Of a stretch of DNA of 64,000 nucleotides, positions 56,460 through 59,370 are shown piece after piece. The notes beneath the pieces are model-generated. The model saw only the letters and a list, made by a program, of their open reading frames with translations. It was not told where the DNA came from and ran no database searches. The stretch's first letter is position 1. Every line of letters begins with the position of its first letter. A program made the translations under genes and the position numbers. The stretch is from Ruegeria aquimaris. GTDB lineage: Bacteria; Pseudomonadota; Alphaproteobacteria; Rhodobacterales; Rhodobacteraceae. The stretch lies in contig NZ_JAOWLB010000014.1 in the NCBI RefSeq assembly GCF_025751555.1, positions 1 to 64,000 of the forward strand, given 5' to 3'.

Positions 56460-58274
56460 CTACTCCTCGTACCACCAGACATCGGGCATATATTGCGGGC
56501 CGTCGCCATAGATCGGCGGGTTTTCCGGATACCGCAGCTGCCGGATATGGGCGATCCGGCCGACCTCGAAGCTCCAGATCGGGATCACATAACGTCCGGC
56601 GGTCAGAATACGGTCCAGCGCGCGCGCGGCGGAGGTCAACTCTTCCTGCGTTCTGGCCGACAGCATCGCGTCGATCATCGCGTCGATCGCGGGCAGATCG
56701 GCGCCCATGAGGTTGCGCGTGCCGGGCTGGTTGGCGGATGCGGAGCCCCAGTAGAGCCTTTGTTCGTTGCCGGGCGACAGGGACAGGTCGCGGCGGAAAG
56801 GCGTAAGATCGAAGTCTAGATCGGCGATCCGCGCGGTGTATTGTGCATTGTCGACTTTCTCGGTCGTGGCCTGGATACCCAGGCGCTCCAGCGCCCGGGC
56901 GTAGATGTCGATCACCGTCTGCATGTCCGTGTCCCCCTGCCGGATCAGGAAGCGGAACGTAAAGGGGTCGCCGTCCGGCCCCATCAGCACCCCGTCTTCG
57001 ACGTTGAACCCGGCATCGGCCAGCTGGGTTGCGGCCTTGCGCAGGTTCTTTCGATTGCGCGCGGTGCCATCGCCAACCGGCAGGGCGTAACCCTCGAGCG
57101 TGCCGGGTGGCAGGGCATCGGCATGGGGCGCCAGCAGATCGGCTACCGCGCCGGTGGCCGGACCCGGGCGAAAGGCCAGATCGGTTCCGGAAAAATACGA
57201 TGTGATGCGGGGCATCGCGCCGCCGGTGACGGTATCGTTGATGTACTCGAAATTGAACGCTTGCAGCAGTGCCTCGCGCACGCGCCAGTCGTCGAACGGC
57301 ACGCGCCGGGTGTTGATGACAAATCCGGTCATGCCCGAGGGTTTGCCATGGGCGATCTCGGTCTTGATCACATCGCCGCGCTGGACGGCGGGAAAGTCAT
57401 ATACACTGTCCCATTTCTGGGCGTTGAATTCCCGGATCGCGCTGATCTCACCGGCCTTGAATGCCTCGAACAGAACCGACTGGTCGCCGAAGAAATCAAT
57501 GCGCATCTCGTCAAAGTTCATCGTGCCGCGCCGAAAGCCCAGGTTCTGCCCCCAATAGTCCGGGTTTCGCCTGAACGTCACGTAGCGGCCCGGCTCGTAG
57601 GCCGAGACGACATAAGGTCCGGTGCCGATGGGAATGTCGTGGATGCCAGCGTCGGACAGGCTGCGCCCCTCCCACTGCGCTTTTTGCAGAATCGGGCGCA
57701 GACCGGCCAGCATGGCCAGTTCCCGGTCATCGTCGGCAAAGGTCATCCGCACGCTGCGCGGGCCGGTTGCCTCGATCGACGCGATGCGCGACCAGAATCC
57801 GCGATAGCGCAGATGCCCCTCGGTGCCCAAGGTCTGGTAGGACCAGATCACGTCTTCGACCGTGACCGGGTTGCCATCCGAGAATCGGGCCTCGGGGCGC
57901 AGGGTGAATTCCACCCAAGAGCGGTCCGGCGGCGTCTCGACCGATTCGGCCAAAAGACCGTAGAGCGTGAACGGTTCGTCCCAGCTGCGGCCCATCAGGC
58001 TCTCGTAGGACCAGAACTGCATCTGCCAGGGAACCGTGCCCTTCTGCGCAAAAGGATTGAGGCTGTCGAAGCCGCCGGTATTGCCAAAGACAACCCGCCC
58101 GCCCTTCGGGGCGTTCGGGTTGGCATAGGGCAAAGACACAAAATCCGGTGGTAGATCCGGGTCCCCATACATAGCTATGGCGTGCCGTGATTCTGCCGTG
58201 GCGAAATTCGCACTCAGAACAAGGGCGATTCCCGCCGCCAACTGACGGAGAGAGGGGAAAAAATCTGGTCGCAC
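56460..58274 (-). CDS. YejA-like extracellular solute-binding protein
   Basis: A 604-residue periplasmic binding protein of ABC family 5 (peptide/opine/nickel). Signal peptide (about 1-27, ATA cleavage) followed by the type II fold with HAIAMYGDPDLPPDFVSLPY, PFTLYGLLAESVETPPDRSW and GTGPYVVSAYEPGRYV. The length and the opening match YejA of the YejABEF microcin C/peptide importer. Start GTG 58274 has no close ribosome-binding site (an AGGA lies about 13 bases upstream), so it is moderately uncertain. No permease or ATPase gene adjoins it, so it is an orphan in this window. Confidence 0.87.
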   Translation of the reverse strand: MRPDFFPSLRQLAAGIALVLSANFATAESRHAIAMYGDPDLPPDFVSLPYANPNAPKGGRVVFGNTGGFDSLNPFAQKGTVPWQMQFWSYESLMGRSWDEPFTLYGLLAESVETPPDRSWVEFTLRPEARFSDGNPVTVEDVIWSYQTLGTEGHLRYRGFWSRIASIEATGPRSVRMTFADDDRELAMLAGLRPILQKAQWEGRSLSDAGIHDIPIGTGPYVVSAYEPGRYVTFRRNPDYWGQNLGFRRGTMNFDEMRIDFFGDQSVLFEAFKAGEISAIREFNAQKWDSVYDFPAVQRGDVIKTEIAHGKPSGMTGFVINTRRVPFDDWRVREALLQAFNFEYINDTVTGGAMPRITSYFSGTDLAFRPGPATGAVADLLAPHADALPPGTLEGYALPVGDGTARNRKNLRKAATQLADAGFNVEDGVLMGPDGDPFTFRFLIRQGDTDMQTVIDIYARALERLGIQATTEKVDNAQYTARIADLDFDLTPFRRDLSLSPGNEQRLYWGSASANQPGTRNLMGADLPAIDAMIDAMLSARTQEELTSAARALDRILTAGRYVIPIWSFEVGRIAHIRQLRYPENPPIYGDGPQYMPDVWWYEE

Positions 58275-58353
58275 TTGCGAAACAATCCTGCTCGGGCCTT
58301 ATTTTCTTGGCGCTCACCCTAACGAGGGATTCACGTCTTTTCAAACTTTTAGC

Positions 58354-58382
58354 TTGGATGCGAGCGTGGAATTGCTTATAAA
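58354..58382 (+). promoter_or_regulatory. sigma-70-type promoter for intergenic RNA
   Basis: TTGGAT (58354-58359) and TATAAA (58377-58382) with a 17-base spacer form a plausible housekeeping promoter reading rightward, away from the divergent YejA-like gene. A start near 58389 is predicted. There is no gene start within 200 bases, so it drives the short transcript next listed or an extended leader of the dehydrogenase gene. Confidence 0.55.
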
Positions 58383-58388
58383 GGGGTC

Positions 58389-58463
58389 ACTGCTCGATAG
58401 GTTTCTTGCCTGTATGAAACCTGCCTCAATAACTTAACGCCCGCCTTGCGCGGGCGTTTTTTT
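58389..58463 (+). ncRNA. candidate small RNA or terminated leader
   Basis: The predicted transcript of about 75 nucleotides has two hairpins. The first is AGGTTTC (58399-58405) with GAAACCT (58416-58422), a perfect seven-base-pair stem with a ten-base loop. The second is the intrinsic terminator at 58438-58463. Between them a seven-codon open frame (ATG 58414, stop TAA 58435-58437) sits just before the terminator. It could be a trans-acting, Hfq-dependent RNA (hfq is in this window), or a premature-termination leader controlling the dehydrogenase gene 133 bases downstream. The other parts of the 322-base gap hold no gene. No known family is recognised. Confidence 0.6.
58438..58463 (+). terminator. 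intrinsic terminator of intergenic RNA
   Basis: CGCCCGC (58438-58444) and GCGGGCG (58450-58456) form a seven-base-pair stem with a five-base loop, followed by seven T residues (58457-58463), a textbook rightward intrinsic terminator. No annotated rightward gene lies upstream of it in the gap, which is what draws attention to the RNA. Confidence 0.9.
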
Positions 58464-58596
58464 CTGAGCGGATCTGCATCGTTTTTCCTCGCACGGGCAC
58501 CGTTCACTTCCCCTCGGGCCAGTCGTTTTGTCGTTTTCTTTGCAGGTGCAGCATGGCAGGGTGTCGCGCGATGGACATTCTCAGAGAGGGCAAGAC

Positions 58597-59370
58597 ATGT
58601 CGCTGAACGGAAAGACCGCAATCGTCACCGGGTCCAATTCGGGTATCGGTCTGGGCATCGCACGTGAACTGGCGCGGGCCGGGGCGGATGTCGTGCTGAA
58701 CTCGTTTACAGATCGGGACGAGGATCATGCGCTGGCGCATGCGCTGGCCGAGGAATTCGGCGTCAAGGCGCGCTATATCAAGGCCGACATGTCCAAGGGC
58801 GAGGAATGCCGCGGCCTGATCGAACAGGCAGGTGCTTGCGACATCCTGGTGAACAACGCGGGTATTCAGCATGTCTCGCCGATCGACGAGTTCCCGGTCG
58901 AGAAATGGGATGCGATCATCGCCATCAACCTGAACTCGGCCTTTCACACCACGGCGGTGGCCCTGCCGATGATGCGGGCGGCGGGCTGGGGCCGGATCGT
59001 CAATATCGCCTCGGCCCACGGGCTGACCGCCTCGCCCTTCAAGGCGGCCTATGTGGCGGCCAAGCATGGCATTGTCGGAATGACCAAGACCGTGGCGCTG
59101 GAAACCGCGCAGGAACCGATCACCTGCAACGCCATCTGTCCGGGCTATGTGCTGACCCCGCTGGTCGAGGCGCAGATCCCCGACACGATGGAGAAATATG
59201 GCATGGGCCGGGAAGAGGTGATCAAGAAGGTGATGCTGGAACGGCAGCCGTCCAAGGAATTCGCGACCGTCGAGCAGTTGGGCGGCACGGCGGTCTTTCT
59301 GTGTTCGGATGCGGCGGCGCAGATCACCGGGACCACGATCAGCGTCGATGGTGGCTGGACCGCGCTTTGA
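58597..59370 (+). CDS. bdhA: 3-hydroxybutyrate dehydrogenase
   Basis: A 257-residue short-chain dehydrogenase that interconverts 3-hydroxybutyrate and acetoacetate with NAD, linking polyhydroxybutyrate breakdown to the TCA cycle. Rossmann motif GSNSGIGLGIA (about 12-22), NNAG, and catalytic Tyr/Lys in AAYVAAKHGIVGM (around 151-157). ATG 58597 has AGAGGG upstream; the longer frame from 58528 is not conserved. A terminator lies 133 bases upstream, so expression needs its own promoter or read-through. Followed by a repeat element and the patatin-like gene. Confidence 0.92.
   Translation: MSLNGKTAIVTGSNSGIGLGIARELARAGADVVLNSFTDRDEDHALAHALAEEFGVKARYIKADMSKGEECRGLIEQAGACDILVNNAGIQHVSPIDEFPVEKWDAIIAINLNSAFHTTAVALPMMRAAGWGRIVNIASAHGLTASPFKAAYVAAKHGIVGMTKTVALETAQEPITCNAICPGYVLTPLVEAQIPDTMEKYGMGREEVIKKVMLERQPSKEFATVEQLGGTAVFLCSDAAAQITGTTISVDGGWTAL

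Follow-up and report, generated by a model that had tools for sequence, protein, structure and literature searches.

A small RNA gene of Ruegeria aquimaris, a probable StsR orthologue with conserved complementarity to the dcw leader

What is encoded in the short gap between a divergent gene for an extracellular solute-binding protein and bdhA, the gene for 3-hydroxybutyrate dehydrogenase, in Ruegeria aquimaris? A preliminary description of this DNA noted a promoter-like pair, a hairpin and an intrinsic terminator in the gap and proposed an RNA of about 75 nucleotides, which could act in trans or could be a leader stopping transcription before bdhA under some conditions; a seven-codon open frame was pointed out as well. 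We analysed the locus within a stretch of 64,000 nucleotides (the window) and across the family Rhodobacteraceae. The segment 58389-58463 of the plus strand is a real small RNA (sRNA) gene that has so far been without annotation, and from sequence evidence we put the probability that it encodes an orthologue of StsR, an sRNA of Rhodobacter sphaeroides, at roughly nine in ten.

A transcription unit with an RpoH-like promoter

The promoter-like pair, the hairpin and the terminator noted earlier were each recovered on the plus strand (Table 1), with 17 nt between TTGGAT and TATAAA. Conservation was assessed over 73 loci, which include five genomes of one genus and leave out L001, L007 and L008 (repeats of G000 and G003, also present as L002 and L003) as well as L157 (a weak second match). 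A58389 is an A in 72 of these loci and is the likely start of transcription, so the RNA is predicted to be about 75 nt long and to span 58389-58463, in agreement with the length first proposed.

A consensus scan of positions 57800-59000 reported no sigma-70 promoter, and TTGGAT agrees with TTGACA at 3 of 6 positions (counted by hand); a sigma-70 promoter was set aside and the RpoH type preferred. The consensus described for RpoHI and RpoHII has TTG at -35 and TAT at -12 (PMC10673084), and TTG near -35 is found together with TAT near -10 in 65/73 loci, a count that ignores kinship. CTTG at -36 to -33 is 86-97% conserved, and most of the spacer is not. Directly 5' of the -35 region, the A/T-rich block TTCAAACTTTTAGC (positions -48 to -37) is 68-92% conserved, mostly above the spacer, and could be a UP element or a regulator site.

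Table 1 Features of the sRNA locus, in positions of the window
Feature	Positions	Strand	Remarks
Extracellular solute-binding protein gene, neighbour	56460..58274	-	Divergent
A/T-rich element 5' of the -35 region	58340..58353	+	TTCAAACTTTTAGC; conserved over 73 loci
-35 region TTGGAT	58354..58359	+	RpoH-like; CTTGGAT with the preceding C
-10 region TATAAA	58377..58382	+	T, A, T at -12 to -10 kept in 92-96% (73 loci)
sRNA gene, predicted StsR orthologue	58389..58463	+	About 75 nt; conservation, 40-nt identity, fold z
5' tail CTGCTCG	58390..58396	+	Complement of CGAGCAG in dcw leader; possible second contact
Hairpin 1	58399..58422	+	7 bp, 10-nt loop
Antisense segment	58406..58427	+	TTGCCTGTATGAAACCTGCCTC; part TGCCTGTATGAAACCT perfectly complementary to own dcw leader
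Intrinsic terminator	58436..58463	+	9-bp stem, 5-nt loop, seven T
bdhA, 3-hydroxybutyrate dehydrogenase, neighbour	58597..59370	+	TIGR01963, 368.3 bits (cut-off 307.05)

The segment 58388-58464 folds with -25.3 kcal/mol (z = -4.24), a value reached by 0/200 shuffles. Hairpin 1 is formed by the arms AGGTTTC (58399-58405) and GAAACCT (58416-58422). It is followed by the terminator stem AACGCCCGC/GCGGGCGTT (58436-58458, with the inner 7 bp at 58438-58456) and a T-run at 58457-58463. Four terminator-like sites were counted in 57800-59000 (1.1 +/- 1.2 in shuffles), two of which are the terminator of the sRNA.

The covarying hairpins that had been suggested as a check were found in part. Every modelled terminator pair (8 in all) is changed on both sides in at least one of 52 distinct aligned sequences, which amounts to compensatory change. 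Hairpin 1, by contrast, is near-invariant (six of its seven pairs constant in 52/52 sequences, the seventh broken in one) and offers no covariation test, for or against, because its sequence hardly varies; this sequence appears to be held by antisense pairing.

Conservation across the family

Homologues were sought by BLAST with 58345-58465 as the query, which matched 289/295 family genomes and 258/260 of those of good quality; four of the six genomes without a match are <90% complete. The sRNA is present in 5/5 genomes of the genus and in 10/10 genomes picked from 80 named loci, among them Cereibacter johrii, C. azotoformans (Luteovulum), C. ovatus, C. changlensis, Rhodobacter capsulatus and R. 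viridis; R. sphaeroides 2.4.1 is outside the picked set, and close relatives are in it. Part of the query also occurs in 4 of 72,556 plasmid records, all from Paracoccus.

Beyond the family, a covariance model built from the 52-sequence alignment was run against 385 genomes of the class (E ≤ 0.001, Infernal's stricter filters) and matched 12 of them. Five belong to the same family and score 104-106 bits; the other seven, from other families, score 26-32 bits and were treated as chance, and with them a spread beyond the family was rejected. Family membership was listed mainly for matched genomes in this search, and the unmatched ones may include family members. As far as tested, the sRNA is predicted to be confined to Rhodobacteraceae.

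Conservation is concentrated in the 5' part: identity among the 52 distinct sequences is 90% or more at every one of the first 40 positions, and the first 40 nt are unchanged in 64/73 copies. One deviating locus, L060 (G230, sRNA at 1018-1094 on the minus strand), has roughly 30 additional bases between ACTGCTCGA and AGGTTTC; the 5' region of the sRNA is interrupted there, and the promoter no longer has its usual spacing. At another locus, L157 (G305, C10:92426-92449), 24 nt nearly repeat the sRNA core, perhaps by chance.

Independence from bdhA and variability of the small frame

The proposal of a transcription attenuator or leader of bdhA draws on gene order, since bdhA begins 134 nt downstream on the same strand and lies downstream in 55/73 loci. 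Synteny argues against it. The distance is 40 to 401 nt in 51 loci and 1.0-1.4 kb in 4, and no bdhA homologue was detected in the remaining 18 of the 73 (downstream flank up to ~1.5 kb); a constant link to a downstream bdhA was thus not found. The first 40 nt are unchanged in 14 of the 18 loci without a detected bdhA and in all 4 with a distant one, and the solute-binding protein gene is 5' of the sRNA and divergent in 70/73. As the RNA is unchanged where bdhA is undetected or distant, we regard it as an independent gene that is probably not the leader of bdhA; the varying length of its small frame also speaks against a leader. Attenuation of bdhA was rejected on these grounds and strikes us as very improbable.

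The seven-codon frame pointed out earlier does exist here (ATG AAA CCT GCC TCA ATA ACT TAA, peptide MKPASIT), and the peptide is kept in 31/73 loci. It is not conserved beyond these: elsewhere the frame stops after 5 to 8 codons or stays open to the end of the RNA, with a varying C-terminus, and ATGAAACC is absent from 4/73 loci. The start codon sits at the border between the loop and the 3' arm of the invariant hairpin, inside the antisense segment, and its nucleotide conservation follows from these two. A coding role was ruled out by the variable frame length over the 73 loci, and we attach next to no weight to the reading of the transcript as a tiny mRNA or a dual-function RNA for MKPASIT.

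An invariant segment antisense to the dcw leader

The leader of the division/cell-wall (dcw) cluster contains a site complementary, in antisense orientation, to the invariant segment UUGCCUGUAUGAAACCUGCCUC. Within the genome of R. aquimaris, sRNA and dcw leader share a 16-nt perfect match; the 15-mer, at -173 to -158 counted from the start of mraZ, belongs to the stem of a hairpin predicted in the leader, and the mraZ leader has a terminator at -61 to -21. Each of the five genomes of the genus has just two copies of the exact 15-mer GGTTTCATACAGGCA, one in the sRNA and one upstream of mraZ; the reversed 15-mer, used as a control, gave 0 occurrences in the same five genomes.

Across the family, the exact 16-mer form is present in 119/295 genomes, compared with 1/295 for the reversed control; in at least two of the 119 (G139, G170) it is the sRNA itself, and in G104 it is not near mraZ. 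Among 30 sites that were fetched, 28 precede mraZ by 133-228 nt on the same strand; the remaining two are G139's own sRNA and an additional site in G095.

Two further sets cover leaders with other forms of the site. For the second, 40 genera were chosen from the 176 without the 16-mer; 38 have mraZ, eight of which were not fetched. In 29 of the 30 resulting leaders the site is better than in all 100 mononucleotide shuffles, and G018 is marginal (2/100). The third set consists mainly of genomes with divergent sRNAs, and each of its 30 leaders was tested with the sRNA of its own genome: 28 have a site equalled by at most 1/60 shuffles, whereas G033 (17/60) and G062 (7/60) have no significant site for their own sRNA. 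Left out were the leader of G021, which runs into a contig end, and G170, G306, G015 and G080, in which no mraZ was found. The antisense site lies ~100-230 nt upstream of mraZ in most leaders and 51-84 nt upstream in three divergent ones.

The predicted complementarity between sRNA and leader is therefore strongly conserved. Evidence of covariation, as judged from calculated duplexes, is divided, with one case for it and two against. In G105 the genome's own core-changed sRNA would pair better with its leader than the consensus (-31.9 vs -29.1 kcal/mol), whereas the consensus would pair better in G062 (own -17.0, consensus -22.2 kcal/mol) and at the core site of G033 (own -15.4, consensus -20.3 kcal/mol). 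Of the two roles first proposed, our results favour a trans-acting sRNA, which is conserved as one unit and has an invariant segment predicted to be antisense to the dcw leader at another place in the genome.

Assignment to StsR

An sRNA with these properties has been described in R. sphaeroides. StsR (formerly RSs0827) is presented in PMC8307010 as a 72-nt orphan sRNA that is under RpoHI/RpoHII control, is induced more strongly than any other RNA in late stationary phase, and is associated with Hfq; by the same account its pairing with UpsM and the dcw 5' UTR influences dcw expression and division, and rpoE is a further target with a seed 10 nt after the start codon. Pairing with UpsM and the dcw 5' UTR is described as giving access to RNase E (PMC8307010, PMC8625941). 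According to PMC5089854, UpsM is a product of the dcw 5' UTR formed by termination, and only Rhodobacteraceae have a long, terminator-bearing mraZ leader. Further R. sphaeroides papers that name StsR are PMC11354728 and PMC9779115.

The resemblance extends over several traits. Both RNAs are orphans with their own terminator, and the lengths are close (72 nt published, about 75 nt predicted here); in the C. johrii homologue, 72 nt falls inside the U-run (counted by hand). RpoHI/RpoHII-type promoter elements are predicted here as TTGGAT/TATAAA, and the complementarity to UpsM and the dcw 5' UTR is represented by the 16-nt perfect match. In C. johrii, C. azotoformans and C. ovatus, relatives of the StsR host, the sRNA lies between the same two neighbour genes. 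UpsM (RSs0682), which R. sphaeroides makes from its dcw 5' UTR, is the proposed partner, the R. aquimaris mraZ leader having both the site and a terminator; it differs from the sRNA in being the target RNA and in coming from another locus.

Size, promoter type, target and distribution being alike, we assign 58389-58463 to StsR with the probability given at the outset. The assignment was made from these traits and from close relatives of R. sphaeroides. Besides the difference in genus, the rpoE site of StsR was not clearly recovered: for the rpoE start region, calculated duplexes of -19 to -24 kcal/mol fall at several places other than the published site in C. johrii and C. azotoformans, and the raw duplexes are dominated by the terminator, without which no clear single site stands out.

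Other routes to a name gave less. Within the window, all Rfam families stay below their thresholds; Leu_leader, Trp_leader and Hrs13, in which a hairpin is likewise followed by a GC-rich terminator, score 27.5, 23.5 and 21.7 bits against gathering scores of 50, 41 and 52, and Rfam membership was rejected on that basis. The alignment and covariance model made here can fill this gap in Rfam for the missing sRNA family. As described in PMC5107571, Paracoccus denitrificans sRNAs such as Intergenic 60 and Intergenic 134 are 80-84 nt long, were found by RNA-seq and have family-wide homologues; one sRNA of this group could be the one studied here. Some of the intergenic RNAs reported in surveys of Ruegeria pomeroyi and P. 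denitrificans may likewise be this RNA. An attempt to locate StsR through the number in RSs0827 was dropped, as literature on RSP_0827 and its neighbours gave nothing useful; we infer that numbers in names of this kind do not track gene tags.

With this assignment, a 75-nt stretch without annotation becomes a named regulator, a presumably stress-made RNA that would act on the cell-division gene cluster. As an orthologue of a known sRNA it is ordinary in kind, with a testable extension. What the present analysis adds is the family-wide conservation of the complementarity between sRNA and leader, and a possible second contact.

A possible second contact with the leader

The first 10 nt of the sRNA are as invariant as the core, and the core site leaves them unexplained. 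A second conserved leader block, GCGAGCAGACATCCCCCCAGG, holds CGAGCAG, the exact complement of the tail CTGCTCG. We compared 87 leaders, in which G153 is represented twice (L186, L240) and 28 were chosen for having the core site, a choice that is circular for the core and not for the second site. CGAGCAG occurs in 64/87 and ranks first among 210 permutations of its letters. Of 62 leaders in which both motifs were located, 51 have CGAGCAG beginning 40-47 nt downstream of the core ACAGGC, a position that gives the right order for antiparallel pairing. Permuted tails that match a comparably conserved leader 7-mer numbered 41, 95, 236 or 342 of 20000, depending on the threshold. CGAGCAG may nevertheless be kept for reasons other than pairing with the tail, and the leaders are related by descent. 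Its absence from 23/87 leaders, with the tail retained in 12 of the 14 cases among them that have an aligned sRNA, likewise counts against a second contact.

On this basis we propose, tentatively and with the balance leaning against it, that StsR and the dcw leader form one conserved two-RNA device with a bipartite contact throughout Rhodobacteraceae. In such a model the StsR core (nt 18-39) would pair with site A (TTCATACAGGC) and the 5' tail CUGCUCG with site B (CGAGCAG), thereby clamping the middle region of the leader. In some lineages the tail might contact the UpsM terminator instead, at its 5' arm and loop (GATCGGGCAGTG), and so influence read-through into mraZ. On average the tail matches this arm better than all 150 permuted tails do, yet the match is poor in many leaders, that of R. 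aquimaris included; given this and the shared ancestry of the leaders, we treat the terminator contact as an option only. In G033, the altered tail pairs better than the consensus tail (-19.0 vs -15.8) at another stretch of the leader, upstream of the core site. The predicted second contact site can be tested by point changes.

Two features of the leaders themselves may be recorded here. Leaders of the dcw cluster such as L161 (G000) and L163 (C. johrii) have a second strongly conserved block, GCGAGCAGACATCCCCCCAGGTGG, and many leaders have a terminator with a variable stem and a constant loop, CAGTGGCAG; the core StsR site explains the function of neither.

Proposed action and other targets

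What we observe is that the sRNA is conserved, that it has a predicted structure and an RpoH-like promoter, and that an antisense site is conserved upstream of mraZ. By analogy with R. sphaeroides, we infer that sigma control, stationary-phase induction, Hfq association, RNase E cleavage and the effect on division hold here as well. Under stress or in stationary phase, a sigma factor of the RpoH type would transcribe the sRNA, which would end at its own terminator; by opening the leader hairpin, the sRNA would then give access to RNase E. As a result dcw expression would change, and probably be lowered, which would link stress to division. In the StsR study, in NAR in 2021, dcw mRNA reportedly goes down. 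Our data suggest that the link between stress and division of R. sphaeroides is kept in most genera of this large marine and soil family.

Could the gene instead encode a different family-conserved, RpoH-dependent sRNA that acts mainly on other mRNAs, the dcw match being a side effect or a second function? The tail gives some reason to ask: CGAGCAG is absent from 23/87 leaders, and 12 of the 14 of these with an aligned sRNA keep CTGCTCG. Other targets probably exist, then, the tail being kept where the dcw leader has no complement to it, and StsR itself has at least one further published target, rpoE. Against a mainly different role, each of the five genus genomes has, apart from the sRNA itself, the exact 15-mer at the dcw site only, the core TACAGGC is the commonest leader 7-mer (77/87, with 28 of the leaders chosen for the site), and StsR is the very sRNA reported to bind the dcw leader. 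We therefore consider a different sRNA of this kind improbable and retain the assignment to StsR.

Two additional sites came up outside the mraZ leaders. The extra exact antisense 16-mer of G095 (L218, C12:70861-70876) has no mraZ in its 3-kb locus and is possibly another StsR target in that genome. In R. aquimaris itself, a one-mismatch antisense copy, GGTTTCAGACAGGCA, is found at G000:C7:106588-106602 (L208) and is a candidate further target.
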